From: Sycon ciliatum
Taxonomy: Eukaryota > Porifera > Calcarea > Leucosolenida > Sycettidae
Length of the DNA stretch: 64,000 nucleotides
Assembly: GCF_964019385.1 (NCBI RefSeq)
Contig: NC_088655.1
Coordinates: 14,565,731-14,629,730, forward strand
Direction: 5' to 3'
In this document: piece after piece, positions 6,001 through 58,730 of the stretch
Position numbering within the stretch: position 1 is the first letter of the stretch
Layout: every line of letters begins with the position of its first letter
Position numbers and translations under genes: made by a program
Notes under the pieces: model-generated
What the model saw: the letters and a program-made list of their open reading frames with translations, nothing else
Databases searched by the model: none
Told to the model about the DNA's origin: nothing

Positions 6001-6469
6001 TCATGTTATAGAGAGGTACGTTGAAAGTGACACGTGGGCACATATGGTCAAAAAGCGACAATTTCTCACCTTTCTGCCTGTTCGAAGCTCAAGAACTGAC
6101 CATCGCCACCCTAATCTCGTCGTATAGCTGGACAGAGGGAAGATCACGAAGAAAAAATTCCACATTTCAATAAACACTTCGCCCAGGGTTGCTCAAAGCT
6201 GACATCAACCGATCTCGAAGTTTTGGGCCTTTTTGCCCGTGATTCTTCACTTTGTGACTAAACTATTCACAACAGTGCCAAATTTTTGGCGTCACTGAAT
6301 GCGGGTGCCAGCGGTCTACAAGCAAACCAAAAATCAAATCGATACGACTACTAACATTACAGCTGGGTCATGTTATAGAGAGGTACGTTGAAAGTGACAC
6401 GTGGGCACAAATGATCAAAAAGCGACAATTTCTCACCTTTCTGCCCGTTCGAAGCTCAAGAACTGACCA

Positions 6470-9400: not shown

Positions 9401-12150
9401 TTCGAAGCTCAAGAACTGACCATCGCCACCCTGATCTCGTTGTACAGCTGGACATAGGGAAGTGCACCAAGAAAAAATTCCACATTTCAATAAACATTTC
9501 GCCCAGGGCTGCTCAAAGCTGACGTCAACCGATCTCGAAGTTTTGGGCCTTTTTGCACGTGATTCTTCGCTTTGCGACTAAACTATTCACAGCAGTGCCA
9601 AATTTTTGGCGTCACTGAATGCGGGTGGTAGCGGCCTACAAGCAAACCAAAAATCAAATCAATACGACCACTCACATCACAGCTTGGTCATGTTATAGAG
9701 AGGTACGTTGAAAGTGACACGTGGGCACAAATGGTCAAAAAGCGACAATTTCTCACCTTTCTGCCTGTTCGAAGCTCAAGAACTGACCATCGCCACCCTG
9801 ATCTCGTTGTATAGCTGGACAAAGGGAAGTGCACGAAGAAAAAATTCCACATTTCAATAAACACTTCGCCCAGGGCTGCACACTTCGCCCAGGGCTGCTC
9901 AAAGCTGACATCAACCGATCTCGAAGTTTTGGGCCTTTTTTCCCGTGATTCTTCACTTTGTGACTAAACTATTCACAGCAGTGCCAAATTTTTGGCGTCA
10001 CTGAATGCGGGTGTGCGCGGCCTACAAGCAAACCAAAAATCAAATCAATGCGACCACTGACATCACAGTTGGGTCATGTTATAGAGAGGTACGTTGAAAG
10101 TGACACGTGGGCACAAATGGTCAAAAAGCGACAATTTCTCATCTTTCTGCCCGTTCGAAGCTCAAGAACTGACCATCGCGACCCTGATCTCGTTGTATAG
10201 CTGGACATAGGGAAGTGCACCAAGAAAAAATTCCACATTTCAATAAACACTTCGCCCAGGGCTGCTCAAAGCTGACATCAACCGATCTCGAAGTTTTGGG
10301 CCTTTTTGCCCGTGATTCTTCACGTTGCGACTAAACTATTCACAGCAGTGCCAAATTTGAGGCGTCACTGAATGCGGGTGGTAGCGGCCTACAAGCAAAC
10401 CAAAAATCAAATCAATACGACCACTCACATCACAGCTGGGTCATGTTATAGAGGTATGTTGAAAGTGACACGTGGGCACAAATGGTCAAAAAGCGACAAT
10501 TTCTCACCTTTCTGCCCGTTCGAAGCTCAAGAACTGACCATCGCCACCCTGATCTCGTTGTATAGCTGGACATAGGGAAGTGCACCAAGAAAAAATTCCA
10601 CATTTCAATAAACACTTCGCCCAGGGCTGCTCAAAGCTGACATCAACCGATCTCGAAGTTTTGGGCCTTTTTCCCCGTGATTCTTCACTTTGCGACTAAA
10701 CTAATCACAGCAGTGCCAAACTTTAGGTGTCACCGCATCCGGGTGCCAGCGGCCTACAAGCAAACCAAAAATCAACTCAATGCGACCACTCACATCACAG
10801 CTGGGTCATGTTATAGAGAGGTACGTTGAAAGTGACACGTGGGCACAAATGGTCAAAAGGCGACAATTTCTCACCTTTCTGCCCGTTCGAAGCTCAAGAA
10901 CTGACCATCGCCACCCTGATCTCGTTGTATAGCTGGACATAGGGAAGTGCACCAAGAAAAAATTCCACATTTCAATAAACACTTCGCCCAGGGCTGCTCA
11001 AAGCTGACATCAACCGATCTCGAAGTTTTGGGCCCTTTTGCCCGTGATTCTTCACTTTGCGACTAAACTATTCACAGCAGTGCCAAATGTTTTGCGTCGC
11101 TAAATGCGGGTGCCAGCGGCCTACAAGCAAACCAAAAATCAAATCCATACCACCACTCACATTACAGTTGGGTCATGTTATAGAGAGGTACGTTGAAAGT
11201 GACACGTGGGCACAAATGGTCAAAAAGCGACAATTTCTCACCTTTCCGCCCGTTCGAAGCTCAAGAACTGACCATCGCCACTCTGATCTCGTTGTATAGC
11301 TGGACATAGGGAAGTGCACCAAGAAAAAATTCCACATTTCCATTAACACTTCGCCCAGGGCTGCTCAAAGCTGACATCAACCGATCTCGAAGTTTTGGGC
11401 CTTTTTGCCCGTGATTCTTCACTTTGCGACTAAACTATTCACAGCAGTGCCAAATTTTTGGCGTCACTAAATGCGGGTGCCAGCGGCCTACAAGCAAACC
11501 AAAAATCAAATCAATGCGGCCACTCACATCAAAGCTGGGTCATGTTATAGAGAGGTATGTTGAAAGTGACACGTGGGCACAAATGGTCAAAAAGCGACAA
11601 TTTCTCACCTTTCTGCCCGTTCGAAGCTCAAGAACTGACCATCGCCACAATGATCTCGTTGTGCAGCTGGACATAGAGAAGTGTACCAAGAAAAAATTCC
11701 ACATTTCAATAAACACTTCGCCCAGGTCTATTCAAAGCTGACATCAACCGATCTCGAAGTTTTGGGCCTTTTTGTCCGTGATTCTTCACTTTGCGACTAA
11801 ACTATTCACAGCAGTGCCAAATTTTTGGCGTCACTGAATGCGGGCGCCAGCGGCCTACAAGCAAACCAAAAATCAAATCAATACGACCACTCACATCACA
11901 GCTGGGTCATGTTATAGAGAGGTACGTTGAAAGTGACACGTGGGCACAAATGGTCAAAAAGCGACAATTTCTCACCTTTCTGCCCGTTCGAAGCTCAAGA
12001 ACTGACCATCGCCATCCTGATCTCGTTGTATAGCTGGACATAGGGAAGTGCACCAAGAAAAAATTCCACATTTCAATAAACACTTCGCCCAGGGCTGCTC
12101 AAAGCTGACATCAACCGATCTCGAAGTTTTGGGCCTTTTTCCCCGTAATT
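6470..12150. repeat. Higher-order duplication in the satellite, 3320 bp offset
   Basis: Nine consecutive monomers starting near 6470 recur almost unchanged 3320 bp downstream; landmark pairs are 7052/10372, 7737/11057 and 8471/11791. The offset equals nine monomers plus a 19 bp internal duplication (CACTTCGCCCAGGGCTG repeated), which marks one monomer near 6557 and its copy near 9877. The same marked monomer also occurs near 4703, 1854 bp (five monomers plus the insert) before 6557. Shared variants such as CACGTTGCGA and the 2 bp loss in GTTATAGAGGTACG support block duplication rather than monomer-by-monomer change. Confidence 0.9.
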
Positions 12151-13559
12151 CTTCACTTTGCGACTAAACTATTCACAGCAGTGCCAAATTTTTGGCGTCA
12201 CTGAATGGGGGTGCCTGCGGCCTACAAGCAAACCAAAAATCAAATTAATACGACCACTCACATCACAGCTGGGTCATGTTATAGAGAGGTACGTTGAAAG
12301 TGACACGTGGGCACAAATGGTCAAAAAGCGACAATTTCTCACCTTTCTGCCCGTTCGAAGCTCAAGACCTGACCATCGCCACCCTGATCTCGCTGAATAG
12401 CTGGACATAGGGAAGTGCACCAAGAAAAAATTCCACATTCAATAAACACTTCACCCAGGGCTGCTCAAAGCTGACATCAACCGATCTCGAAGTTTTGGGC
12501 CTTTTTCCCCGTGATTCTTCACTTTGCGACAAAAGTATTCACAGCAGTGCCAAATTTTAGGTGTCGCCGAATGGGGGTGCCAGCGGCCTACAAGTAAACA
12601 AAAAATCAAATCAATGCGACCACTCACGTCACAGTTGGGTCATGTTATAGAGAGGTACGTTGAAAGTGACACGTGGGCACAAATGGTCAAAAAGCGACAA
12701 TTTCTCACCTTTCTGCCCGTTCGAAGCTCAAGAACTGACCATCGCCACAACGATCTCGTTGTATAGCTGGACATAGGAAACTGCACCAAGAAAAAAGTCC
12801 ACATTTTAATAAACACTTCGCCCAGGGCTGCTCAAACATGACATCAACCGATCTCGAAGTTTTGGGCCTTTTTGCCTGTGATTCTTCACTTTGCGACTAA
12901 AGTATTCGCAGCAGTGCCAAATTTTTGGCGTCACTAAATGCGGGTGCCAGTGGCCTACAAGCAAACCAAAAATCAAATCAATACAACCACTCACATCACA
13001 GCTGGGTTATGTTATAGAGAGGTACGTTGAAAGTGACACGTGGGCACAAATGGTCAAAAAGCGACAATTTCTCACCTTTCCGCCCGTTCGAAGCTCAAGA
13101 ACTGACCATCGCCACCCTGATCTCGTTGTATAGCTGGACATAGGGAAGTGCACCGAGAAAAAATTCCACATTTCCATTAACACTTCGCCCAGGGCTGCTC
13201 AAAGCTGACATGAACTGATCTCGAAGTTTTGGGCCTTTTTGCCTGTGATTCTTCACTTTGCGACTAAACTATTCACAGTAGTGCCAAATTTTTGGCGTCA
13301 CTAAATGCGGGTGCGAGCGGCCTACAAGCAAACCAAAAATCAAATCAATGCGACCACTCACATCACAGCTGGGTCATGTTATAGAGAGGTACGTTGAAAG
13401 TGACACGTGGGCACAAATGGTCAAAAAGCGACAATTTCTCACCTTTCCGCCCGTTCGAAGCTCAAGAACTGACCATCGCCACCCTGATCTCGTTGTATAG
13501 CTGGACATAGGGAAGTGCACCAAGAAAACATTCCACATTTCCATAAACACTTCGCCCAG

Positions 13560-13600
13560 GGCTGCTCAAAGCTGACATCACCTTTCTGCCCGTTCGAAGC
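13560..13600. repeat. Truncated satellite monomer junction
   Basis: At about 13578 the sequence jumps from GCTGACATCA directly to CCTTTCTGCCCGTTCG. It omits most of a monomer (the ATTCTTCACTTTG to TTTCTCA part), leaving a unit of about 130 bp. This is the clearest internal deletion in the array. A smaller one, about 21 bp, lies near 1982 (GAGAGGTACACAAATGG). Confidence 0.8.
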
Positions 13601-16125
13601 TCAAGAACTGACCATCGCCACCCTTATCTCGTTGTATAGCTGGACATAGGGAAGTGCACCAAGAAAAAATTCCACATTTCACTAAAAAATTCACCCAGGG
13701 CTGCTCAAAGCTGACATCAACCGATCTCGAAGTTTTGGGCCTTTTTGTCCGTGATTCTTCACTTTGCGACTAAACTTTTCACAGCAGTGCTAAATTTTTG
13801 GCGTTACTAAATGCGGGCGCCAGCGGCCTACAAGCAAACCAAAAATCTAATCAACGCGACCACTCACATCACAGCTGGGTCATGTTATAGAGAGGTACGT
13901 TGAAAGTGACACATGGGCACAAATGGTCAAAAACCGACAACTTTTCACCTTTCAGCCTGTTCGAAGCTCAAGAACTGACCATCGCCACCCTTATCTCGTT
14001 GTACAGCTGGACATTGGGAAGTGTACCAAGAAAAAATTCCACATTTCAATAATCACTTCGCCCAGGGCTGCTCAAAGCTGACATCAACCGATCTCGAAGT
14101 TTTGAGCCTTTTTGCCCGTGATTCTTCACTTTGAGACTAAACTATTCACAGCAGTGCCAAATTTTTGGCGTCACTGAATGCAGGTGCCAGCGGCCTAAAA
14201 GCAAACCAAAAATCAAATCAATACGACCACTCATATCACAGCTGGGTCATGTTATAGAGAGGTTCGTTGAAAGTGACACGTGGGCACAAATGGTCAAAAA
14301 GCGACAATTTCTCACCTTTCTGCCCGTTCGAAGCTCAAGAACTGACCATCGCCACCCTGATCTCGTTGTATAGCTGGACATAGGGAAGTGCACCAAAAAA
14401 ACATTCCACATTTCCATAAACACTTCGCCCAGGGCTGCTCAAAGCTGACATCAACCGATATCGAAGTTTTGGGCCTTTTTGCCCGTGATTCTTCACTTTG
14501 CGACTAAACTATTCACAGCAGTGCCAAATTGTAGGTGTCAGCGAATGCGGGTGGCAGCGGCCTACAAGCAAACCAAAAATCAAATCAATGCGACCACTCA
14601 CATCACAGCTGGGTCAGGTTATAGGGAGGTACGTTGAAAGTGACATGTGGGCACAAATGGTCAAAAAGCGACAATTTCTCACCTTTCTGCCCGCTCGAAG
14701 CTCAAGAACTGACCATCGCCACCCTGATCTCGTTGTATAGCTGGACATAGGGAAATGCACCAAGAAAAAATTCCACAATTCCATAAATACTTCGCCCAGG
14801 GCTGCTCAAAGCTGACATCAACCGATCTCGAAGTTTTGGGCCTTTTTCCCCGTGATTCTTCACTTTGCGACTAAACTATTCACAGCAGTGCCAAATTTTA
14901 GGTGTCACCGAATGCGGGTGCAAGCGGCCTAAAAGAAAACCAAAAATCAAATCAATGCGACCAATCACATCACAGCTGGGTCATGTTATAGAGAGGTACG
15001 TTGAAAGTGACACGTGGGCACAAATGGTCAAAAAGCGACAATTTCCCACCTTTCTGCCCGTTCGAAGCTCAAGAACTGACCATCGCCACCTTGATCTCGT
15101 TGTATAGCTGGACATAGGGAAGTGCACCAAGAAAAAATGCCACATTTCAATAAACACTTCGCCCAGGGCTGCTCAAAGCTGATATCAACCGATCTCGAAG
15201 TTTTGGGCCTTTTTGCCCGTGATTCTTCACTTTCAGACTAAACTATTCACAGCAGAGCCAAATTTTAGGTGTCACCGAATGCGGGTGCCAGCGGCCTACA
15301 AGCAAACCAAAAATCTAATCAATGCGACCACTCACATCACAGCTGGGTCATGTTATAGAGAGGTACGTTGAAAGTGACAAGGGGGCACAAATGGTCAAAT
15401 AGCGACAATTTCTCACCTTTCTGCCCGTACGAAGCTAAAGAACTGACCATCGCCACCCTAATCTCGTTGTACAGCTGGACATAGGGAAATGCACCAAGAA
15501 AAAATTCCACATTTCAATAAACACTTCGCCCAGGGCTGCTCAAAGCTGACATCAACCGATCTCGAAGTTTTGGGCCTTTTTGCCCGTAATTCTTCACTTT
15601 GCGACTAAACTATTCACAGCAGTGCCAAATTTTTGGTGTCACTGAATGCGGGTGCCAGCGGCCTACAAGCTAACCAAAAATCAAATCAATGCGACCACTC
15701 ATATCACAGCTGGGTCATGTTATAGAGAGGTACGTTGAAAGTGACACGTGGGCACAAATGGTCAAAAAGCGACAATTTCTCCCCTTTCTGCCCGTTCGAA
15801 GCTCAAGAACCGACCATCGCCACCCAGATCTTGTATTATAGCTGGACATAGAGAAGTGCACCAGGAAAAATTTCACATTTCAATAAACACTTCGCCCAGG
15901 GCTGCTCAAAGCTGAAATCAACCGATCTCGAAGTTTTGGGCTTTTTGGTCCGTGATTCTTCACTTTGCACCTAAACTATTCACAGCAGTGCCAAATTTTT
16001 GGTGTCACCGAATGCGGGTGTCAGCGGCTTACAAGAAAACCAAAAATCAAATCAATGGGACCACTCACATCACAGCTGGGTCATGTTATAGAGAGGTACG
16101 TTGAAAGTGACACGTGGGCACAAAT

Positions 16126-26641: not shown

Positions 26642-27174
26642 CTGAAGACATAAAGTGTACAACAATATGCACACTAAATCAACAATAGCAACAACACCGT
26701 CCATTAGGAAGCGCAGTTTGGACAAACACATACGTATAGTACGAAATAAAATAGCGCGAGCTCCAGTGTGGGAGCAAACCCATTCCTAAACATACGTATA
26801 GTGCAGAAGTATTTAGTGCCAGGTTTCACTGTGGATTATTGTTGACAATACTAACATTAATCAATGTGCCAAATAGGTTTTTTCATTTGACCCGACGAGA
26901 CCACACGACGCTTGCAGATCACAGCACGCACTGTTCACCAGCCACACTCCACGAAAGCAAGTAGTAGTAGTACTCCTGACAAGTCTTGTTTCGTTCCATA
27001 GAGATATAACGAGGAACTCATCAGAGGAGAAGCAGTTGTTGAATGAAGGGGTTTAGAATTGTTAATCAATGTGCCAAATCAGTCCCCTCTGTCAGATTGG
27101 ACTGCTTATGCAGCCAGCTGCCACAAGAAGCGGGCTACACAACTTTTGCCTGCAATAGTACACTGTCTACTTAC

Positions 27175-34614: not shown

Positions 34615-35436
34615 TTAATAAGTCAAGCTGGCAAAGAGTGCAAAGTGACCGCAAGAGAGTTGAATCCAAAGCAGGGTTGCATAATTATAACCCTGTGTCT
34701 ATCATGCACAGGGTGCAAATAAATTGTATGAGTTTTGTCACGCGATGTGAAGTTGTTCCTAGGTTAGACAGGCAGGGGGGGGGCAAGAACACTACCAAAA
34801 GCCCTGGGCTAGAAAATGAAGCGTTCAATATCGTTTTCTACATATTTACCTGGATTTTATTTGGGGTGGAGGTGCTTCTTTGGATGCCTCCACCCCCGGA
34901 ATGGAGCGGTGTCTGATGTCGATGGCATAGATCGCGGAGAGTGGATGGCGTTGCCTGAAGGAAATGAACAGGTATACAAAATGAAGAACTGGCAAGTGTT
35001 TCCGAAGCAAAATGCACCAGACTGCAGTTCATTCAAGCACATATCAGGGTTGGCAACGAGACTGGAATTTGAAACAAAACTTGTAGCGGTATTCATTGCA
35101 AGTGACAGTGTAGGAGTGATGTGAAGGTAGCAAACACAAAGGGATAAGGAAAGAACGTGAAATAACTACACAGCTGAAAGTTTACTACAATTGGCATTGA
35201 TTACTTCGGCTCAGAATTCATCCGTATTGTGTCAATCACCCATCAGTCCAACATTCCCACTCACAATGAAGAAGTCACACGAGTAGTGCAAGTACACATG
35301 TGCAAGACACAAAATGAAATGCATGGATCATTAACAGCAGTACTTAACTTTTAGCTCCATTGGTTGGGTTGAAGCGTGAGGTAATGACTTCCCGTGGCGG
35401 GCAGTAGAACTGTGATGTGGGGGCATAGCGGCCAAT
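34615..35436. repeat. Segmental duplication, 5' block, copy A
   Basis: Aligns over its length with 43725-44550 (for example GACCGCAAGAGAGTTGAATCC, AACCCTGTGTCTATCATGC, GGTAGCAAACACAAAGGGAT). The last part also matches 38669-38882 continued at 41694, and 43331-43490. It ends with the GCAGTAGAAC segment that always precedes a 38 bp minisatellite. A candidate exon lies within. Confidence 0.9.
34897..35121 (+). CDS. Candidate duplicated exon, copy A (unknown protein)
   Basis: The plus frame reads RNGAVSDVDGIDRGEWMALP, then EGNEQVYKMKNWQVFPKQNA and PDCSSFKHI before a stop at the end. The copy at 44012 keeps the same frame with many conservative changes (GEWM, LPEG, YKM, NWQ/DWQ, FPK, PDC, KHI retained) and a different stop. 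Preservation of the frame in two diverged copies suggests coding descent, and the composition resembles a small extracellular domain. No family is recognised, exon borders are not defined, and a minus-strand frame is also open. A noncoding explanation remains possible. Confidence 0.3.
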
Positions 35437-36625
35437 GCCGGTAGTAGCGTAGCGCTGATCAACCCATCCCGATGCCGGTAGTAGCATAGCGCTGATCAAC
35501 CCATCCCCGATGCCTGTAGTGGTGTAGCGCTGATCAACCCATCCCCGATGCCGGTAGTAGCGTAGCGCTGATCAACCCATCTCCGATGCCGGTAGTAGCG
35601 TAGCGCTGATCAACCCATCCCCGATGCCGGTAGTAGCGGAGCGCTGATCAACCCATCCCTGATGCCGGTAGTAGCGTAGCGCTGATCAACCCATCCTCGA
35701 TGCCGGTAGTAGTTGATCAACCCATCCCCTATGCCTGTAGTAGTGTAGCGCTGATCAACCCATCCCTGATGCCGGTAGTAGCGTAGCGCTGATCAACCCA
35801 TCCTCGATGCCGGTAGTAGTTGATCAACCCATCCCCTATGCCTGTAGTAGTGTAGCGCTGATCAACCCATCCCCCATGCCTGTAGTGGTGTAGCGCTGAT
35901 CAACCCATCCCCGATGCCGGTAGTAGCGTAGCGCTGATCAACCCATCCCCGATGCCGGTAGTAGCGTAGCGCTGATCAACCCATCCCCGATGCCGGTAGT
36001 AGCGTAGCGCTGATCAACCCATCTCCGATGCCGGTAGTAGCGTAGCGCTAATTAACCCATCCCCGATGCCGGTAGTAGCGTAGCGCTGATCAACCCATCC
36101 CCGATGTCGGTAGTAGCGTCGCGCTGATCAACCCATCCCCAATGCCGGTAGTAGCGTAGCGCTGATCAACCCATCCCCGATGTCGGTAGTAGAGTAGCGC
36201 TGATCAACCCATCCCCGATGCCGGTAGTAGCGTAGCGCTGATCAACCCATCCCCGATGCTGGTAGTAGCGTAGCGCTGATCAACCCATCCCCGATGCCGG
36301 TAGTAGCGAAGCGCTGATCAACCCATCCCCGATGCCGGTAGTAGCGTAGCGCTGATCAACTCATCCCCGATGCCAGTAGTAGCGTAGCGCTGATCAACCC
36401 ATCCCCGATGCCGGTAGTAGCGTAGCGCTGATCAACCCATCCCCGATGCCGGTAGTAGCGAAGCGCTGATCAACCCATCCCCGATGCTGGTAGTAGCGTA
36501 GCGCTGATCAACCCATCCCCGATGCCGGTAGTAGCGTAGCGCTGATCAACCCATCCCCGATGCTGGTAGCAGTGGAGCGCTGATCAACCCATCCCCGATG
36601 CTGGTAGTAGCGAAGCGCTGATCAA
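35437..36625. repeat. 38 bp minisatellite array A, about 31 copies
   Basis: Contiguous tandem copies of GCCGGTAGTAGCGTAGCGCT followed by GATCAACCCATCCCCGAT. The unit includes AGCGCT and TGATCA palindromes four bases or fewer apart. There are no spacers between units, so it is not a CRISPR. Some copies lose part of the unit (GGTAGTAGTTGATCAACCC near 35707). Repeated Asp-Gly-Leu-Ile frames are its translation. Confidence 0.97.
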
Positions 36626-38668
36626 CCACCGATGACGGTCATAGTGAAGCATTGGCTGATCTACCGGAGCTGATACTGGTGTAGAGCTGGTTGGCTGGCT
36701 GATGTGGGTAGTAGCGTAGAGCTGGTTGACTGGCTGTTATCGGCGGTAGCATACAGCAGGTTGACCACGCTATACCGGTAGTAGCTGTGAGCTGACAACA
36801 AACTTCGCAAGACACAATCGGTTAGTAGCATACGCCCATGTAATAGCAGCCTGGTAGGACCACTGTCACATGGGGAACCTACCTATGACAACATTACACA
36901 AAATGCCAAACATAGGCAACGTACCGGTATGAGCTGGATGATAGCGATGCCCCAAGACGTCTTGTCGCTAGCTGTGAGGGGTAGGAATTCATCATGACAC
37001 CATTGGTAAGTAGCATACACCCATGCAACAGCAGCCTGCTAGAGCCACTGTCACATGGGGAACCTACCTATGACAACAGTGCATAACCCCACTAAGATAA
37101 TACTATAGTTACCATGGCGATATCGCTGGTTGCCGCGGTGATAGCGTAGCGCTGGGTGTAGAAGAGCTGACCTACAGGGTTTACCTGCCCCTGATCTATA
37201 GGGGGATGTGATATGTGTAGTATTGTGAGAATGGGATGAGTATAAGGATATGTGAGAAAATAATGAAATTGTGAAAGGAAAATGTGAAATTTGATGAATG
37301 ACAAACTGTGAATAGAGTTCTGATGGAATAGTATAGTCATTGTTCTTTGATGTTTGGGCAGCAGCAGTTCCATCCAGCCGCTTCACCGAGTCCAGGGCTG
37401 GGAATTGTTTGAGAGAAGCACTGACTGTCCACAGCGCGGTGAGGTCTGTGTGAGTGATGGGAAAGTGTAATGGAGGGGTCAGTAGAATACCATGCGGTGC
37501 ATCAGATACAGCAATCATCCTGTATGCTAGCACAAAATGACTCACAGTTACATTAGAAATTCAGGTTGTGTCTACATCACTAACCATTTAAAATAAAGAG
37601 AGGAGATATTTACTAGGGATACAGTTCTGATGGTATGCAATGAAAACAGTCATAATTATGTTAACTCTTCTATACCTTCATCAGCCTGTTTTTGACCTTT
37701 TCCTTTGACTGATTCGGGCAAGAGCTGCATTTTTACTCCCCTTCTGGGCGTTTCAACTCACTCACAGACGCCTTCTGGGGATCAACGATATCATAATACA
37801 CGAGCACTCCAACTCTTTACATTCAATGGTCACAACAAATTTGGTGTTTTCACGCGTTTCACTAGCAATGATGTACTTTCGCCGGCTCAAAAAGGAGCTT
37901 TGCTGATCCCCTAAGAGATCAGCAAAAGAACATGGAGTCACCAGCAAGCTGCCTTTCCACTCCCCCCCCCCCCCCCCCCCCACCTCTGTTTAGTTTGTGC
38001 CCAGGGTTGGAACGGAACACCTGTCATTTCCTATTTTCTTAGCAACTACTCAGCAGCAATACTGGATTGCTACTAAGTAGTGCCAACACCCCCTCAAGAA
38101 TAATTTCCAATCGATGCTGGATGATGCAGCCTGCATGATAAGACAAGAAGACACACAGTCATGCGCACACCCACAAGCACCAGGAAGACACAAACAAATA
38201 CATGGGCATCAGCAGGTGCATGACCTGTAAAACTTGTCATAATATGTTCACTGTAGGAAAAGGCAATCCAGTGTGTGGCAAGAATGAGGCATGGGTATGT
38301 GTGATCCCCGGCAGCCGATTCGGTAGGGAATTGTCCCGGAAATACAGGGCTGCTGAGTTTGAATTCCGTTCGTGGGTCCTTCTTTTGCAACAAATGGCAC
38401 AATAAAACCCATAGCAATTGTACATAGCAACAAGATACTTGCTATTCCATCAGCCGCTGACATCGTCATCTTCACCATGACGCTCATCACCGTGATGTGC
38501 GCATTTCCATCCTCTTGTCAACGCGTCAGTGTCGGATGAATTTCCTTTATGAACAACATAAGAAACAAATGGCAGAAATACGACCAATGACATGATGTTT
38601 AGATCCTTGCCGAAAAGAAAGCCACTGTCCAATAATTTTACTGGTATTTCAATAGAACAGACTGACAT
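36626..38668. repeat. Segmental duplication, 3' block, copy A
   Basis: Aligns with 45466-47701 (GCTGATCTACC, GGTAGCATACAGC, GGGGAACCTACCTATGACAAC, CAGCAGCAGTTCCATCCAGC, TTGGTGTTTTCAC, GGCAGCCGATT). Within it, TAGCATACnCCCATG...GGGGAACCTACC occurs twice (near 36826 and 37010). Poly-C at 37965-37981. Candidate frames conserved with the other copy: plus strand THSQTPSGDQRYHNTRALQL after a CACTCACAG acceptor near 37771; plus strand CHNMFTVGKGNPVCGKNEAW near 38237; minus strand LLDSGFLFGKDL and a hydrophobic IASILLLCTIAMGFIVPFVA segment near 38400-38640. The minus frame is broken here by a 2 bp difference near 38500. I cannot decide which strand is coding. Confidence 0.85.
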
Positions 38669-39148: not shown

Positions 39149-41462
39149 ATGCTGCGCCGCGCGAGAGGAAGAACTGTGGACGAAGCGCTCCACGAGCTGT
39201 TTCTGAGTTCAGACAGCGATGTGGAGCCGTCAGTGAGTAGCGACAGCGACGAGGAGGGTCTATGGACGCCAGCAAGGGCCAGAGTTCAGAACGAAACTGC
39301 GCCTGATGTGAGTGGCGGAGCAAGCGCCAGTGTCGATGAGTACGTCGCGGAGCACGCGGACATCGATGTTGCGAATGAAGCGCAGCCGGCGGACGTCCGT
39401 GACAGCAGTAGCAGCAGTAGTACTAGTGGCACGGAGAGCGACGATGATGAACAGGCGTCCGAGAGGTCGCATGTCCACATCCAGGAGCAGCTTGCCGCAG
39501 GAGACGATGGGAGCGAAGGTAATTATCTTTTCAATAGTATTTATTTGTTCGTGTGAATTTGAGTACGCTGTGTTTGCACTTTGAGCTGAGTAAAACTATT
39601 ATACGTGCGTTTGTACCTTTGTTGAAAGTAGTCTTACTGTAATATTCCTGGCCATCGTTCAAGATCTGTTTGGCGTTATGCATAGCGTAACTGGAGAATT
39701 TTCAAACAAAATGTTGCCTAAATTCCAGAGTATTTGAGACGTACATCAGCCTTCCTACACTGTAGGGCATCATGTGGCCTGATATTTCCTACATTATTCG
39801 TGTTGTGATGTATTAGGGCAATGGAAGATGGAAGAAAACCAGCCCTTGCAAGACTCGTTCACTGCCCAGCCCGGTATCAAGGTGCCAGTGCCAGAAAATG
39901 CTGAGCCATATCATTATTTTTGCCTGTTTTTTACTTTACAATTTTGGCAATTGCTCTGCACTGAGACCAATCGATTTGCCCAGCAATATCTAAATGCACA
40001 CCGTGACACACTCCCAGCTCGTAGCAGATTTAGGAAATGGGTAGACGTTAGCGTACAAGAAATGAAAGTGTTCTTTGCTCTATTTTTGCTGATGGGATTT
40101 ATTTGGAAGCCAGAAATCGATCTCTATTGGAACAGGAACCCTCTGATTTTCACCCCTTTATTCCCCGCCTCGATGAAGCGCGACCGATGGATGTGTATTG
40201 CAAGTTTTCTGCACTTTGCAAACAATGAAGACGAGACGGCTAGAACCGACAAGCTTAGGAAAATTCGGCCGTTGATTACATTTTTCCAGGATAAATTTCA
40301 GACCGTGTACATTCCGTATAAACATATCTCTATTGATGAAGAATTAGTGCCATGGAAGGGTAGACTAGATTTTAGGCAGTTTATACCCTCGAAACGAGCA
40401 AGATTTGGTGTCAAGATATATGCTCTGTGTGAGTCTAGTGGTTATATGTCTAACTTTTTTGTTTATGTTGGCCGAGATGATCATGCCTATCAGCCTGGCT
40501 TAGTAGAGAAAGTCGGCAAATCTGGTGCCGTAGTTGTCCATTTATTAGATCCATTATTTTTAGACAAAGGCTACAACGTATACATAGATAACTTTTATTC
40601 TAGTATTGAGCTGGCTGAATACTTGGAGACCAGGAAGACCGGAGTGTGTGGAACAATTAGAAAGAATAGGCGTGGCCTTCCAAAGCGGTTGGTGAACCTC
40701 AAGTTGAAGAAACGCGGATCGTTTGCATATCGTACAATGGGCAGTAAATTATTTGTAAAACTATCGGACACCAAAGAAGTATATTTTCTCACCAATTTGT
40801 TCAAGCCTAATGTTATTGCAACGAATAAACGCGACCGCACCAGGAAACGGGTTCACAAACTCAACCTTGTTCACCAATACAATCAGTACATGGGCGGTGT
40901 GGATCGCAATGATGCTCTTCTGTCGTACTACAGTGCATTGAGAAAATCCATGAAGTGGTACAAAAAAATAGGTGCACATTTTATCGAAGAAGCATTATTG
41001 AATTCATATATATTATATAAAAAGTCCAAGAGTATGCCACACCATGAATATGTTATATCTGTATTATCTGCATTGCTTGCGGATGGCACGGGTCCCGCCG
41101 CTGCTGATGATGTTGCTGTTGCCAACCCTGCTCCTGCGGATGCTGCTGGCCCTGTACCTACCACACCAGTTGTCCCTGCTGCTGCTGCCGCTGCTACTGC
41201 CACACCTGCTACTCCTGCCACTCCTGCCACTGCTCGTGGCCTAGTTGTGTCCTCCAGGCTTGGTGGGCGCAAGGGTCACTACCCCGCACCCGTACCTGCC
41301 TCTTGCGGCAAGCCTGAGGGCAAGTCGCAGCGCCGGTGTGTCGTATGCTCCCACAATGGGGTTAGAAAAATGGTCACAATCTGCTGCCTGGACTGCGTGG
41401 ACATGCCTGGCCTATGTGCCACTCCATGTTTCAGAATTTATCACACATGCGAGAAGTTTTAA
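39149..41462 (+). CDS. piggyBac-type transposase, two exons, 671 residues
   Basis: Exon 1 is 39149-39518 from ATG; exon 2 is 39817-41462. The donor GCGAAG|GTAATT and acceptor TGTATTAG|GG remove a 298 bp intron in phase 1, and the join continues exactly into the long frame. Residues 1-120 are acidic and serine-rich, as in piggyBac N-termini. The DDE_Tnp_1_7 core follows, with aspartates at about 297 (HISIDEE), 381 (YIDNFYSS) and 486 (MGGVDRND). Spacings are close to the D268/D346/D447 triad of the moth enzyme. An Ala/Pro/Thr linker (about 551-597) leads to a C-terminal cysteine-rich zinc finger (Cys 631, 634, 646/647, 650, 657, 661, His 666, Cys 668). It would cut and paste at TTAA. No stop or frameshift is seen. 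AATAAA follows at 41608. A one-exon reading from 39828 would lack the N-terminus. Confidence 0.93.
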
Positions 41463-41693: not shown

Positions 41694-41792
41694 CAGCAGT
41701 AATTAACTTTTAGCTCCGTCGGTTGTTTTGAAGGGTGAGGTGACGACTTCCCGTGGCGGGCAGTAGAACAATGCTGTGGTGGTATAGCGGCC
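41694..41792. repeat. Segmental duplication, 5' block, partial copy B (right of piggyBac)
   Basis: Continues the interrupted host repeat: CAGCAGTAATTAACTTTTAG, CGACTTCCCGTGGCGGGCAG, then the minisatellite. Confidence 0.9.
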
Positions 41793-42625
41793 GATGCCGG
41801 TAGTAGCGTAGCGCTGATCAACCCATCCCCGATGCCGGTAGTAGCGTTGCGCTGATCAACCCATCCCCGATGCCGGTAGTAGCGTAGCGCTGATCAACCC
41901 ATCCCCGATGCCGGTAGTAGCGTAGCGCTGATCAACCCATCCCCGATGCCGGTAGTAGTAGCGTAGTGCTGATCAACCCATCCCCGATGCCGGTAGTAGC
42001 GTAGCGCTGATCAACCCATCCCCGATGCCGGTAGTAGCGTAGCGCTGATCAACCCATCCCCGATGCCGGTAGGAGCGTAGCGCTGATCAACCCATCCCCG
42101 ATGCCGGTAGTAGCGTAGCGCTGATCAACCCATCCCCGATGCCGGTAGTAGCGTTGCGCAGATCAACCCATCCCCGATGCCGGTAGTAGCGTAGCGCTGA
42201 TCAACCCATCCCCGATGCCGGTAGTAGCGTAGCGCTGATCAACCCATCCCCGATGCCGGTAGTAGCGTAGCGCTGATCAACCCATCCCCGATGCCGGTAG
42301 TAGCGTTGCGCAGATCAACCCATCCCCGATGCCGGTAGTAGCGTAGCGCTGATCAACCCATCCCCGATGCCGGTAGTAGCGTAGCGCTGATCAACCCATC
42401 CCCAATGCCGGTAGTAGCGTAGCGCTGATCAACCCATCCTCGATGCCGGTAGTAGCGTAGCACTGATCAACCCATCCCCGATGCCGGTAGTAGCGTAGCG
42501 CTGATCAACCCATCCCCGATGCCGGTAGTAGCGTAGCGCTGATAAACCCATCCCCGATGCTGGTAGTAGCGTAGCGCTGATCAACCCATCCCCGATGCCG
42601 GTAGTAGTAGCGTAGCGCTGATCAA
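41793..42625. repeat. 38 bp minisatellite array B, about 22 copies
   Basis: Same unit as array A and more homogeneous. A triplicated GTAGTAGTAGCG occurs in two units (near 41953 and 42600). Followed by sequence not shared with the other copies. Confidence 0.97.
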
Positions 42626-43330
42626 CGGCAACGGCATGAACGGCTGCTGGTTGCACTTGGTCTGTGTTCTAGCCGGGGCGCGGGCGCTGCTGTGCCGACA
42701 GAGACATAGAAAGTGCGTTAGCCCGGCCAAGGCCCGCACCTGTACCGCGTTGTGGGTTGACAAGATTCGACATGTTCAGATGGTGTGGACGGTACTGTGA
42801 TATAGACGATGACAGACTCGATCCAGAACTACGAACGAGATCAGCGCACAAACGCAACACTGCAAAAAAAATAGAACGGGGTCACCAATGTAGGGTCCTA
42901 GCCCTAGCACAACTCTTAAAACGCACACAAATGGCGTAAATCGAGAGAGTTGTATTATTACTGTAATATTGACAAAGCAATGAAAGAGAGATAGAAAGGC
43001 AACTGCCTTCCATGAAACCAAACTATCTACTGGCCTAAAGCTCTAGGTTGAGAATGTCTTGGCCAGTAAGGAAAAGGGTGTACATGTGTAGTAATGACAT
43101 AGTACAGTGACAGTGTGTATATGTCCTATATACAGATACGCTACGGTATAAATGCCTGGCGAAATACTAGGATGCATGATGGGATATATGCGTACAATCT
43201 GGAATCTGAACCAGAAGTAGCGTACACATTATTATTCCGGGAAATGGCCATAAAAATCAAAGTCACCGCTTACGGAAAACCCAGGAGTGAAAACGGAAAA
43301 GTTACAGGTATGGGAACTGCTAAAGTCACC
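42626..43330. other. No gene recognised, unshared sequence
   Basis: This stretch replaces the 3' block found after arrays A and D. Short frames on both strands are uninformative. Confidence 0.4.
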
Positions 43331-43690
43331 ACAAAGTCACACGAGTAGGGCAAGTACACATGTGCAAAACACAAAATGACATGCATGGATCATTAACAGC
43401 AGTACTTAACTTTTAGCTCCATCGGTTGTTTTGAAGCGTGAGGTGACGACTTCCCGTGGCGGGCAGTAGAACAATGCTGTGGTGGTATAGCGGCCGATGC
43501 CGGTAGTGGCGTAGCGCTGATCAACCCATCCCCGATGCCGGTAGTAGCGTAGCGCTGATCAACCCATCCCGGTGCCGGTAGTAGCGTAGCGCTGATCAAC
43601 CCATCCCGGTGCCGGTAGTAGATTAGCTCTGATCAACCCATCCCCGATGCCGGTAGTAGATTTGCGCTGATCAACCCATCCCCGATGCAG
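43331..43690. repeat. Copy C: short 5' block and five-unit 38 bp array
   Basis: AAAGTCACACGAGTAG to GCATGGATCATTAACAGCAG gives an empty piggyBac site, followed by about five 38 bp units (43495-43690), some with CCGGTGCCGG in place of CCCGATGCCGG. It passes straight into copy D at GATGCAGAACTTCACATCAC. Confidence 0.9.
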
Positions 43691-44552: not shown

Positions 44553-45465
44553 GGCCGATGCCGGTAGTAGCATAGCGCTGATCAACCCATCCCCGATGCC
44601 GGTAGTAGTGTAGCGCTGATCAACCCATCCCCGATGCCGGTAGTAGCGTAGCGCTGATCAACCCATCCCCGATGCCGGTAGTAGCGTAGCGCTGATCAAC
44701 CCATCCCCAATGCCGGTAGAAGCGTAGCGCTGATCAACCCATCCCCGATGCCGGTAGTAGCGTAGCGCTGATCAACCCATCCCCGATGCCGGTAGTAGCG
44801 TTGCGCTGATCAACCCATCCCCGATGCCGGTAGTAGGGTAGCGCTGATCAACCCATCCCCGATGCCGGTAGTAGCGTAGCGCTGGTCAACCCATCCCCGA
44901 TGCCGGTAGTAGCGTAGCGCTGATCAACCCATCCCCGATGCCGGTAGTAGCGTAGCGCTGATCAACCCATCCCCGATGCCGGTAGTAGCGAAGCGCTGAT
45001 CAACCCATCCCCGATGCCGGTAGTAGCGTAGCGCTGATCAACCCATCCCCGATGCCGGTAGTAGCGTAGCGCTTGATCAACCCATCCCCGATGCCGGTAG
45101 TAGCGTAGCGCTGATCAACCCCATTCCCGATGCCGGTAGTAGCGGAGCGATGATCAACCCATCCTCGATGCCGGTATTAGTGTAGCGCTGATCAACCCAT
45201 CCCCGATGCCGGTAGTAGCGTAGCGCTGATCAACCCATCCCCGATGCCGGCAGTAGTGTAGCGCTGATCAACCCATCCCCGATGCTGGTAGTAGCGTAGC
45301 GCTGATCAACCCATCCCCCGATGCCGGTAGTAGCGTAGCGCTGATCAATCCATCCCCGGTGCCGGCAGTAGCGGAGCGCTGATCAACCCATCCCCGATGC
45401 CGTTCGTCGCGTAGCGCTGACCAACCCATCCCCGATGCCGGTCGTCGCGTAGCGCTGATCAACCA
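44553..45465. repeat. 38 bp minisatellite array D, about 24 copies
   Basis: Same unit; the last units diverge (GTTCGTCGCGTAGCGCTGAC, GGTCGTCGCG) before the unshared flank GATCAACCACCGATGACTG, which parallels the end of array A. Confidence 0.97.
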
Positions 45466-54600: not shown

Positions 54601-57290
54601 GGTCTGTGGTTCGACTCACCCGACCGACCGTACATTTTTCAGCCCGACCGTAACTTTTTTTCGGCGGGCTGTCGTGTGACTGACGTACGTGGACTGAACA
54701 CGTCCACGTCTACGTGCTGTGCAGCGTGAGTCTGCGGACGCAGGCGGCTTCTTTTGGACTTGACTTGTAGTTGTACTGCAGTGCAGTGCAGTGAGTGGTA
54801 CGACTGCTGCCTTGTGCTGGTAGTAGAGTCTACTCGATACGACCACCGGCGGCAGACTGGCGAGACTTATTATGAAGTGACCGTCCGGTTGAGAGTGATT
54901 GCCTCGTTCCAGATTAAGGACGGCCTTCTGTTTTGGGATGAAGGACAGACGAGATTGCACTTTCCTCGTGTATTGGGAACGATATTTCACCTGTACCGGT
55001 AAGTTGCTGCTCCATGTGTGCAAGCACAGGAAGCGTCGATGGAAAAAGCCCATGTATTCGTGCACGCCGACACCAAACTAGCAATACATGTACCGGTACA
55101 TTGTACAATTTGTACTTCGAAGTAGTTCCCGAACTTACTTTCAACTCGCATCGTTCTTCATTTGCTTGATGATTTGGACAGTCAGAGTCACCGCTTGAAG
55201 TTATTCTCTTCTCGTTCTAGAGCTACACAATGTTTCAAAGTATTAGCCAGTGATCCCTTTATACAACATGTATGGCATAACACTGCGTAATAATGCCGAT
55301 GTACTGGGTGTCTAAAGGCAGTACAGTGTATTTACATGTACTAAAAAATATATTTAAAAAAAAATCCGCCCGCCCGCCCGTAAAAAAAATGTCCATGTTA
55401 GTCGAACCACACACCTTCTTTAGTTTGGCCTCATGCTTATTATTTAAAAATACCACCACATGGTGCGTTCCAGCTTTGAGAAGGTTTACCGGGTACATGA
55501 ACTTTGACCTTGACGCGGGGTCAAATGTATGGAGAGAAGGCGGTGTAAACAGTAGCAAAGACTACGGTGAGTGATGGAAAGTAATTGGAATAATTATTGC
55601 TCACAATGGGCGCGTTCGATTACACACAAATCGGTCAATTCTAGAATTAGATATTGTTGATGCACAGTTCAATTACACAAATTCCGTCGTTAGAATTGAT
55701 TTTATCCAATTCCGTCAATTCTGAAGAGAGGGCGGAATTTCTCTAATTCTGGCGCCAGAATTGCACACTCCGTGTGTTCCGGCCTGATCATCATGCATGA
55801 CTCAAAGTCAAGGAAGAGCCTCCTGGCCGGTGTGGCGGAAGGGCTACAACTGCATGTAGTTGCTACTTTTGTCTTCCCGAAAAGCTAATTGCCACAGTTG
55901 CGTTTCCGCTGAGAGCTGAGATATTAGACCAGATCATTTTGGGTGGTCCTTTCGCACACGCGTTCAGCTTTATCGAAGCCCAATATTGTTGCTGACATAG
56001 AGCCTTCGCCGGGATGGTACACGAAGCTGGGTCGACGCGCGCGCGAGGGTGTACGTTATATCTTTTTACGACCAATTTTGTTTGTGATGTGCCATGAATA
56101 AAATGCGTTGTGAATTCCAGTCGTTCGTTTACATGGCCGGAATTCTTACATTTTGGTCATTCGAGGATTACACCCAACACAACAAAAGCACTCAGCTGGC
56201 AGTTCATACACCAATGGAAGTTACAGAGAAATCAAAACTCAACAATGACGTTCAAACTCACCATGCCTAAGGTGCCGGCAGTCTAAGCTAAATTGCTCGT
56301 GGAGAAACCTGGGCAGGAGGTGGAGGCACAGGGCTTGCTACATGTCCGACGCAACAGGAATAGATCAGGACGATTTGTTGCGGCGACGAAACGCTTCGCA
56401 TTGAACTTCGGTGTCCCCCATCGCTAGGGTGGTACTGCGAGACACAGCGTTCTTCCGTTCTGACGGTTATCGAAAGTTTGTGCTCCTGAGGGGAAGACAA
56501 CGAAAATAGAAGTAGCAAACAGAGGTTTTTCTAAACACTACAATAGTCACCAGCATTCACACGATCGTGTTTTCTGCAACACTGAACTATCGATACATAA
56601 CGTACCATTGAAATACGAACTGCTCAAGGCCCGGCTGGAGGAACAGAGTGTTGTAGCCGCACAAAGCAAATGTTACCGCAAAGAACATTTAGCGCGCCGT
56701 CGTTTCTTCTTGACACACTAGCTGGACGAAGTCTTCTTTCTGTCACACGTGCGTTACCTTTCCGCCACTATGAACTTCATTATGCACTATTTGCCGTAGA
56801 ACCCTACATTGGGCAGCCATTGTACGGAACATTTTTCCAGACGAAGAAGAAAGCCATTCTTCCCAACAAGAACATGTAAACAACTGAAAGCGCGCGCTGG
56901 CGCAACAACAACATTGCCCCATGGACGTGCAAGCAGCTGCATTCCACTACTGGGAACTCCGCTGCGTCGTCCAATCATAACAGAGGTCACGAACTTTGGA
57001 GCACCCCCCTAGCCTAGGCCGGGCCCTCAGCGTCATCCGATCCGGTGCATATCCTGAATGTGTAGGGCTCGCCATGCAGGTAACTGGTTAGTCGTCTGGA
57101 TGTCTCTTGCTCTCCAGACTAGATATCTACGGCTGCAACAGTTACTAGACCTAGCTATCTGTGTCACAGTGTGTGTAGTCTATAGATCTACACGACAGTT
57201 GTCAGTAGATGTGGACGTGACTTCCGCAACACCGCAGACCTAATAGAAGTAAAAAGCTAGACTAGCGGTACGTGCGTCTACATAGTATTA
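54601..57290. other. No gene recognised
   Basis: Short features only: (CCCGACCG) repeats near 54630, a related CCGCCCGCCCGCCCG at 55367, an AATTC-rich stretch of imperfect inverted repeats (AATTCTAGAATT, TAATTCTGGCGCCAGAATT) at about 55640-55770, and an AATAAA at 56098. A minus frame at 54616-55065 has no family match. Confidence 0.4.
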
Positions 57291-57294
57291 GTAC

Positions 57295-57549
57295 ATACCC
57301 AATGCTGTAGACAGCAAGCTGTTTCGGCCATAAAGGCCTCATCAGTACAGCTACGAGCTAAATAGGACGAGCTACCAGCCATGGTGCAAAGGAGGCACCA
57401 CAGACATTAAGGTAGCTCGTCGCTCTAGCGCCAGAGTGCTCAAACTACAAAATGTAGCGAGCATTGCGCGATGCAGCAGCACTAGAGCAGCCTACTGAGA
57501 GTGCTCAACAAGGCGAAAGCCGAGGAGCGTGATACCCAATGCTGTAGAC
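57295..57549 (-). mobile_element. Retrozyme-like unit, 237 bp between cleavage-site repeats
   Basis: The 18 bp ATACCCAATGCTGTAGAC occurs at 57295-57312 (ribozyme cleavage site) and again at 57532-57549. On the minus strand both read GTC then TACAGCATTGGGTAT, so the 237 bp from 57546 down to 57310 correspond to one self-cleaved monomer with a partial second copy. Small hammerhead retrozymes spread as circular RNA copied by other elements' enzymes; this is consistent, not proven. The right copy lacks the ribozyme core and abuts a fragment of the terminal palindrome family. Confidence 0.55.
57304..57351 (-). ncRNA. Hammerhead self-cleaving ribozyme
   Basis: On the minus strand: stem I GCTGTA (57351-57346), core CTGATGA, stem II GGCC-TTTAT-GGCC, core GAA, stem III ACAGC-TT-GCTGT, then C (position 17), followed by TACAGC (57309-57304), which closes stem I with six pairs. 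Every conserved core base is present and all three helices pair perfectly. Predicted cleavage is after GTC, between 57310 and 57309. Stem I is the open helix (type I), and the very short stem III is typical of the hammerheads in metazoan retrozymes and Penelope-like elements, which often act as dimers. Identified by eye; no covariance search was run. Confidence 0.85.
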
Positions 57550-57582
57550 CAGGGAGTCGTAAAAGCCCGGGAGAGGACACGG
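57541..57582 (+). repeat. Fragment of the CAGGGAGT palindrome family
   Basis: GCTGTAGACCAGGGAGTCGT with the next 20 bases (AAAAGCCCGGGAGAGGACAC) is identical to the centre-right of the palindrome at 63762-63800, including the spacer CTGTAGAC, and then diverges. Confidence 0.8.
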
Positions 57583-57860
57583 CACACATTCCCAGAAAAC
57601 ATCTTTGCCTCGCGCTGCCGGGGAACGCTGCCAGGGAACGGTGTTGCGAGGCAAGGAAATTATTATTTTCGAAAATTGTGATGTCTTCTTGAAATACTAA
57701 TTGGGACATTCTCCGATTTCTCTTAGAGCACGGAGACGATTGCTCCGTCGAGTCTTCTGATCTCTATTTTCATCCTCATCTTCCAGCTGCCTCACTCATT
57801 CTCTCTCAGTTTATCGAAGTTAATTTATTCTGAGGCGATGGAAATGCAAGACAAATCCCT

Positions 57861-57897: not shown

Positions 57898-58009
57898 GAG
57901 AAACCACGAACCTCGAGAACAGAATACTGCATGGTAGAGGTGGTTGCAGACGCAACTGTGGTGGTGAAAACTGGAGCATAATTGTACTTCACTTTTATTT
58001 GAGTTGGGG

Positions 58010-58541
58010 TGAACGAAATGAGATTTGTGGAAAATGACGCCACTTCCCGTGTTAGCCGCTGGTCGTATCATACAGCCCATATTCCATTGCAGGTGATGGG
58101 CCAACGTTCGTGTTGAGATCCGCTGAGTTTCCTCGTACTCGTGGAGTTGAATTTGTGGCAGAAATTGCACTGAATTGCAGTCAAATGGTTGTGAATGAAA
58201 CGAGATTTGTGGAAAATGACGCCACTTCCCGTGTTAGCCGCTGGTCGTAGCATACAGCCCATATTCCATTGCAGGTGATGGGCCAACGTTCGTGTTGAGA
58301 TCCGCTGAGTTTCCTCGTACTCGTGGAGTTGAATTTGTGGCAGAAATTGCACTGAATTGCAGTCAAATGGTTGTGAATGAAACGAGATTTGTGGAAAATG
58401 ACGCCACTTCCCGTGTTAACCACTGGTCGTATCATACAGCCCATATTCCATTGCAGGTGATGGGCGAAAGTTCTTGTGGAGATCCGCTGAGCTTCCTCGG
58501 CGTACTCGTGGATTTATGAATTTGTGTCAGAAATTGCAGTC
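58010..58541. repeat. 182 bp tandem repeat, nearly three copies
   Basis: AGATTTGTGGAAAATGACGC begins at about 58021, 58203 and 58385, an exact 182 bp spacing. Units include GCCGCTGGTCGTAKCATAC and GATCCGCTGAG. Copies 1 and 2 are almost identical and copy 3 diverges. The minus-strand ORFs with RISTRTLAHHLQWNMG-like repeats are its translation. Confidence 0.92.
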
Positions 58542-58730
58542 GAGTGGACTTCTGTGCGTGTGTTGTGAGTAAATCGCGACGGCTCCCTTCCTTCAGCATC
58601 GTCAAAACGCAACATAGAGCATTATTACGCACTCGTTCCATGATTCATGATAATGCCTGGATTCTTTTAAAAACAATCAATGTGTGTTCCCTATCTATCT
58701 ACATTGTACATGGTTGCAGGTCGTTATTTA

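Follow-up and report, generated by a model that had tools for sequence, protein, structure and literature searches.

According to Cervera and de la Pena (2020, PMC7229834), metazoan non-LTR retrozymes carry type I hammerheads and give rise to RNAs of about 170–400 nt, circles of which were found in coral, mussel and axolotl, the units of the Acropora millepora retrozymes being 220–240 bp long. These authors proposed that the circles are copied by target priming or RNA priming and regarded Penelope-like elements as strong candidate helpers (PMC7229834), and a later 2020 review states that retrozyme repeats show no conserved motif pointing to a helper retrotransposon (PMC7761336). Plant LTR retrozymes are described with a type III hammerhead, a length of 600–1000 bp, LTRs, a tRNA primer site and 4-bp duplications (PMC7761336, PMC7229834). 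In one Penelope-like element, the enzyme begins reverse transcription at an internal position beyond the element's own hammerhead cut (PMC11167929), and target duplications of 8–10 bp are given for rotifer examples of these elements (PMC11167929, PMC3846280). The footprint of the family described here bears on how animal retrozymes re-enter the genome, and we consider this mobile-element footprint worth more than the ribozyme itself.

A preliminary description had placed a retrozyme hammerhead on the minus strand of the window, that is, the whole 64,000-nt stretch of Sycon ciliatum DNA analysed. The retrozyme assignment was borne out by a 237-nt unit, dispersed tandem arrays, long target duplications and the lack of a long reading frame; the evidence supports the filing of the family as a new member of an already known kind, the metazoan-type non-LTR retrozymes. 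We put at about 0.75 the probability that this ribozyme motif processes the RNA of a non-coding, non-autonomous element of this type with 237-nt units, the whole mechanism set out below included. Shared with the published class are the type I hammerhead, the short non-coding units in dispersed tandem (237 nt here, about 150–450 bp in the class) and target duplications that, where present, exceed 4 bp; neither LTR nor primer binding site nor polypurine tract was noticed in the 237-nt unit. The GC content of the window unit (52.7%) differs from the value below 50% given for the class (PMC7229834), and the filing was kept since low GC describes the published set and not the mechanism. A fixed 3′ junction and variants private to single arrays, both seen here, find no mention in the available part of PMC7229834, and no fixed internal 3′ junction of metazoan retrozymes appeared in the titles and abstracts searched.

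With Penelope-like elements bearing minimal hammerheads, as far as the available text describes them, the family has in common a hammerhead RNA, an internal start of reverse transcription past the cut, AT-rich targets, 5′ truncation and partial tandems (PMC11167929, PMC3846280). Unlike them, it has no frame for a reverse transcriptase plus GIY-YIG domain, the longest stop-free run in the six frames of a four-unit concatemer being 54 codons, and its junction has TA. The start would lie 12 nt past the cut, compared with about 85–92 nt in the element of PMC11167929 (calculated by us as the distance between the cut at 26 and the starts at 111–118). Like plant LTR retrozymes, the family appears to be non-autonomous and would release circles by means of hammerhead pairs (PMC7761336, PMC7229834), but it differs from them in its type I hammerhead, its 237-nt unit and its longer duplications.

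The hammerhead and its folding

Read on the minus strand from 57351 to 57304, the sequence is GCTGTA-CTGATGA-GGCC(TTTAT)GGCC-GAA-ACAGC(TT)GCTGT-C^TACAGC and contains the complete core of a type I hammerhead (Table 1). Position, motif and the predicted cut agreed with the preliminary description in the descriptor scan, as did the six and four pairs of stems I and II; the five pairs given for stem III stand if the fifth, which closes just two bases, is counted, and become four by a stricter count. The small stem III had been likened to those of both metazoan retrozymes and Penelope-like elements. The former likeness holds, four to five pairs being the canonical retrozyme type, whereas the hammerheads of Penelope-like elements are described as smaller, "minimal" ones (PMC7229834, PMC7761336). 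The scan of the whole window gave three rows, namely this motif, a weaker alternative of type III built on that core (57320–57406, stems of 6, 4 and 3 pairs) and a type I hammerhead at 26973–27029 (−). No hammerhead was detected on either strand of 40 simulated first-order Markov windows at a descriptor cut-off of 4/3/3 pairs. The hammerhead motif is convincing at the level of sequence, and the observation was confirmed as real. The proposed outer stem Ib (CCTA/TGGG) added no calculated stability to the hammerhead and was left out of the covariation count; a related family (family 2, see below) has CTCA/TGAG at this position, as judged by eye.

Table 1. Features of the retrozyme copy and of its hammerhead in the window
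Feature	Position	Strand	Basis or remark
Retrozyme copy of 1.06 units (unit length 237 nt), from 57549 or 57546 (5′ end) to 57298 (3′ end)	57298..57549	−	
18-nt repeat at the unit start, GTC^TACAGCATTGGGTAT; second occurrence 237 nt away	57532..57549	−	repeat family D5
Hammerhead with proposed outer stem Ib, CCTA 57366–57363 with TGGG 57301–57298	57298..57366	−	pairs in the 70-nt minimum-energy fold
Stem I	57351–57346 with 57309–57304	−	sequence, descriptor scan; compensatory changes in related copies
Core CTGATGA	57345–57339	−	sequence, descriptor scan
Stem II	57338–57335 with 57329–57326	−	sequence, descriptor scan; compensatory changes in related copies
GAA	57325–57323	−	sequence, descriptor scan
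Stem III	57322–57318 with 57315–57311	−	sequence, descriptor scan
C17	57310	−	sequence, descriptor scan
Predicted cleavage site, between C57310 and T57309	57309..57310	−	inferred from the motif
18-nt repeat at the 3′ end, which includes the predicted cut as well as the fixed junction	57295..57312	−	
Fixed 3′ junction shared by family members, TTGGG|TA, 12 nt past the predicted cut, where reverse transcription presumably starts	57297..57298	−	

At the gathering threshold, Rfam returned no hammerhead match for the window site. The preliminary description had named a covariance score below threshold, together with no cleavage at 57310/57309, as speaking against the ribozyme, and on the score the outcome was the unfavourable one: in the E-value mode over 56900–57700, RF00008 reached 25.9 bits (E 0.0041), under its gathering value of 48.5 bits. 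RAGATH-1 scored 17.2 bits (E 4.8); the Rfam listing hides the lower-scoring members of one clan, and Hammerhead_1 has no separate score there. We consider the low score outweighed by the letter-identical copies and by the compensatory changes in stems I and II. Over 69 nt, 104 of the 168 pattern matches in the fetched loci were identical letter by letter, the two families being pooled and some copies counted twice because of overlapping loci. In 14 chosen sequences, 96.9% of the cells were paired, compared with 90.3% after shuffling and at most 44.3% with the partners slid, and the cells changed on both sides numbered 14 against a shuffled mean of 4.0, none of 500 shuffles being as high. The compensatory changes in this set fell in stems I and II and none in stem III. 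By stricter measures, four pairs were changed on both sides and eight further pair types occurred, values that do not stand out, being reached by 89 and 321 of the 500 shuffles, respectively. The covariation support for stems I and II is thus real, but few families stand behind it.

The minimum-energy fold of the minus strand is not the hammerhead. For 70 nt, it has −21.9 kcal/mol, keeps stem II and the outer stem and loses stems I and III, compared with −16.1 kcal/mol for the hammerhead fold and −15.7 kcal/mol with the outer stem, tertiary contacts lying outside the calculation; the minimum-energy fold of the 237-nt circle also keeps stem II and loses the other two. Stems I and III have GCTGT/ACAGC in common, which gives rise to competing pairings whose predicted stability exceeds that of the hammerhead, and this alternative pairing may possibly serve as an off state. 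The differing fold and the score under the Rfam gathering value would both suit a chance hammerhead-like sequence in ordinary satellite DNA that has no ribozyme function. Such an origin is hardly credible, given the empty simulated windows, the compensatory changes in two stems, the target duplications borne by dispersed copies and the hundreds of exact copies of the junction.

Copies, their ends and target duplications

The assembly searched comprised 538 Mb in 313 contigs. A eukaryotic SSU rRNA gene, masked in its 3′ part, was read, while COX1 had no match in the assembly. At least 116 matches to the surroundings of the window copy were found (40 of 1,699 candidates scored), the period was 237 nt, and the 255 nt of the window copy were matched elsewhere in the genome at 96–100%. 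An exact 20-mer across the cleavage junction occurred 591 times and its reversed control was absent; in the 40 dispersed tandem arrays examined, up to 6.28 units were found. Family 2 has units of 226–228 nt and 3,867 exact junction words. In an alignment of 142 positions that begins with the 3′ half of the ribozyme, it is about 72% alike to the main family; an apparently fixed 346-nt class within family 2 was dropped as an artefact of BLAST fragmentation. Viral contigs contained no exact match to the 33-nt core. With hundreds of junction words in the main family and thousands in family 2, the start site, the target rule and the putative circular template can be tested by counting.

The post-cleavage sequence recurs at the 5′ end of the window copy, which has a single complete hammerhead. 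Its transcript could therefore be cut once, without release of a unit-length RNA, and the copy is, judged from its predicted ribozyme content, a dead end for circle release. A search of the unit for Pol III boxes with two simple patterns was negative. Three tandem copies of a 182-bp sequence (58009–58554) lie less than 500 bp from the 5′ end of the copy and about 110 bp off a T33 run.

About 80 loci of the main family were read in total, as a similarity-selected set of 40 arrays (8 of the loci L001–L048 were omitted as showing the same arrays, and L026 and L040 have flanks in common) and as a position-ordered sample from one contig (C1). In the 40 selected arrays, the right end was nearly constant, ..CTGTC^TACAGCATTGGG followed by the flank, so that the 3′ end is fixed 12 nt beyond the predicted cut as GTC^TACAGCATTGGG|TA. 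TA followed TTGGG in 37 of 39 arrays (the exceptions being L023 and L028), and one array (L039) stopped one base sooner, at TTGG; the TA found in 40 of 40 rows of the C1 sample is not independent evidence, as the search word includes it. The 5′ ends varied across the unit. Array lengths ranged from 1.06 to 6.28 units in the selected set and from 0.08 to 2.17 units in the C1 sample, where one locus (L095), flanked on either side by TATAGACGCTA, retains no more than about 28 nt from the 3′ end, and another (L082) is alike. Six rows of this sample (L094, L096, L097, L101, L102 and L103) run into unit-like sequence and do not represent true array ends, and two (L083 and L084) have identical flanks. 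The possibility that 5′ termini were made by cleavage was dropped, as the cases were too few: L089 and L094 start at the first base past the cut, and the start of the window copy is at most 3 nt away from it.

Direct repeats with a score of 9 or more flanked 22 of the 39 arrays, compared with a mean of 2.9 and a maximum of 6 for shuffled partners, while 17 arrays, the window copy among them, had no target duplication at the chosen score. The 14 duplications picked by hand were 9–16 bp long, and many of those found sit in AT-rich simple sequence. In the C1 sample, target duplications were present in 12 of 40 rows (shuffled mean 0.38, maximum 2), or in 8 of 36 when four rows were discarded (two repeats of L075, together with L111 and L112, which resemble a local 34-bp tandem duplication). 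The junction of family 2, read by eye at a few places, is apparently located at the matching position, ..CTGTC^CGCAGATTGAG|TA, and in both families the presumed start lies, by eye, where the outer stem I could close. A fixed 3′ end, a variable 5′ end and target duplications are hallmarks of target-primed reverse transcription. The footprint of the copies fits such a process, begun inside an RNA that was uncut or re-joined at the ribozyme site.

Some loci contain more complex arrangements. In one (L010, 950–2250), sequence of family 2 and of the main family is combined with a third sequence that ends with GCATTGGG before TATATA and has, by eye, a 3′ end similar to theirs; this single composite array looks like a possible case of template switching. 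In L034 (1443–2670), retrozyme copies stand head to head with their 3′ ends outward, the second copy being 89% alike and perhaps a separate insertion. Head-to-head copies with outward 3′ ends were also seen in the Penelope-like elements at L073 and L074, and in all three loci it is as if both strands of a break had been primed.

The RNA template and the copying enzyme

Even short insertions cross the predicted ribozyme cut. If copying starts 12 nt past the cut, a linear monomer that begins at the cut could yield only 12 nt, from which we infer that the ribozyme site of the template RNA had to be either uncut or re-joined. In the 20 of the 40 arrays that have at least two full units, there were 27 variants fixed in all full units of their array, where shuffling gave a mean of 4.07 and a maximum of 12. 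Ten of these variants were private among the 20 arrays (shuffled mean 0.05, maximum 2), while partially shared variants numbered 3 compared with 11.66 after shuffling. Eight of the 10 private variants remained fixed when partial units were counted. Single-unit variants amounted to 53 over the 20 arrays; L033 had 20 of them and no shared one, and L034, with four full units, had none and two shared. The private fixed variants look as if one monomer circle had been copied several times, a pattern that later homogenisation in DNA would also leave. We consider a monomer circle the better reading of these data and probably the actual template. The more specific scheme, that is, rolling-circle reverse transcription of one ligated ribozyme circle from a fixed internal priming site at the hammerhead foot, for up to about six rounds in a single event, we regard as evenly balanced between right and wrong. 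If it is true, the ribozyme would serve both as the maker of the circle and as the landmark at which the enzyme starts.

The same retrozyme could instead have been copied from an uncut, linear multimeric transcript with an internal start, as in the lizard Penelope-like element Poseidon_Ac, circles being uninvolved. For the enzyme of that element, the one assayed in print, ribozyme mutants were still inserted and uncut RNA was the dominant substrate in vitro (PMC11167929), which favours linear templates. The 5′ ends of the selected arrays at first point the same way, as 10 of 40 lie at query positions 176–190, where the hammerhead has its 5′ edge and a transcript could begin (binomial p 0.00015, for a range picked after the data were seen and in a sample selected by similarity). 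Nevertheless, the cluster was missing in the position-ordered sample (3 of 40, p 0.74), and a hotspot of transcription start or reverse transcriptase stop at this edge was rejected. A heterogeneous multimer would not be expected to leave private variants fixed in all full units, and fast-cutting ribozymes make uncut hexamers unlikely, which also counts against linear multimers; on the whole, we find this route unlikely.

A rather improbable course of events is that short insertions arose by target-primed reverse transcription and arrays grew later by unequal exchange or slippage in DNA, their homogeneity being due to concerted change. Both ends of an array, the fixed 3′ one and the fractional 5′ one, would survive gains of whole units, as would the target duplication, and the 34-bp duplication at L111/L112 suggests that duplication at the DNA level does occur here. 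Against such growth stand the four full units of L034 with two shared variants and no single-unit one, the occurrence of 20 arrays of at least two full units at separate places, and the insertions of 1.0–1.6 units (9 of 16 with a duplication score of 9 or more), for which a cut linear monomer would already be too short a template.

The reverse transcriptase would be supplied by another element, and we give even chances to a Penelope-like enzyme as this helper. A GIY-YIG search of the genome yielded at least 13 matches (150 of 944 candidates scored), among them elements resembling Penelope and a frame that is bacterial UvrC-like by eye on a small contig (L063), perhaps that of a symbiont or contaminant. 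The 807-codon frame of L074, in which Pfam scored GIY-YIG only (E 3.4e-05), would encode a Penelope-type reverse transcriptase, as suggested by motifs recognised by eye, and seven other Penelope-like loci among those fetched matched this frame in tblastn (listed as L064–L068 and L070–L073). The descriptor found no hammerhead in L063–L074. With a looser pattern, CTGATGA..GCCGAAACGTT was found in 7 of the 11 loci L064–L074, with variants in L068 and L070 and absence from L066 and L069; we take this pattern to resemble the minimal hammerhead of Penelope. In L074, the 3′ end is far more distant from the CTGATGA motif than in the retrozyme copies and the flanking repeat lacks the initial TA, so that its junction appears by eye to be of another kind. 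No helper could be identified by a shared 3′ end among the few Penelope-like loci fetched.

Starting from the observed motif, family, fixed 3′ junction, truncations, target duplications and homogeneity within arrays, we infer a cycle of which cleavage, circularity, ligase and enzyme are the deduced parts. Arrays holding at least two hammerheads would be transcribed, the ribozymes would cut the array RNA into 237-nt monomers, and a host ligase would close these into circles. A reverse transcriptase from another element would then nick TA-containing, mostly AT-rich DNA, and copying would start next to GGG|UA, 12 nt past the rejoined cleavage site, at the foot of the hammerhead. It would proceed back through the ribozyme and either stop early, giving short 5′-truncated insertions, or run more than one turn round the circle, giving arrays.

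Other elements of the window

The type I hammerhead at 26973–27029 (−) has stems of 5, 5 and 4 pairs by the descriptor and no Rfam match up to E 1. It lies inside a different dispersed element at 26872–27056 (−), which has a direct repeat, TGGCACATTGATTAA, on both sides as read by eye. Elsewhere, several copies of this element stand head to head and some continue at the 3′ end with ACTACT.., a possible counterpart of the optional tail found in Penelope-like elements. A satellite with a 367-bp period occupies 1–16125. A transposase frame at 39783–41459 (+) matches PF13843 (DDE_Tnp_1_7, E 5e-86) and is presumably of the piggyBac type. One 38-bp minisatellite, CCGATGCCGGTAGTAGCG.., occurs at 35435–36627, 41791–42626, 43494–43688 and 44555–45464.
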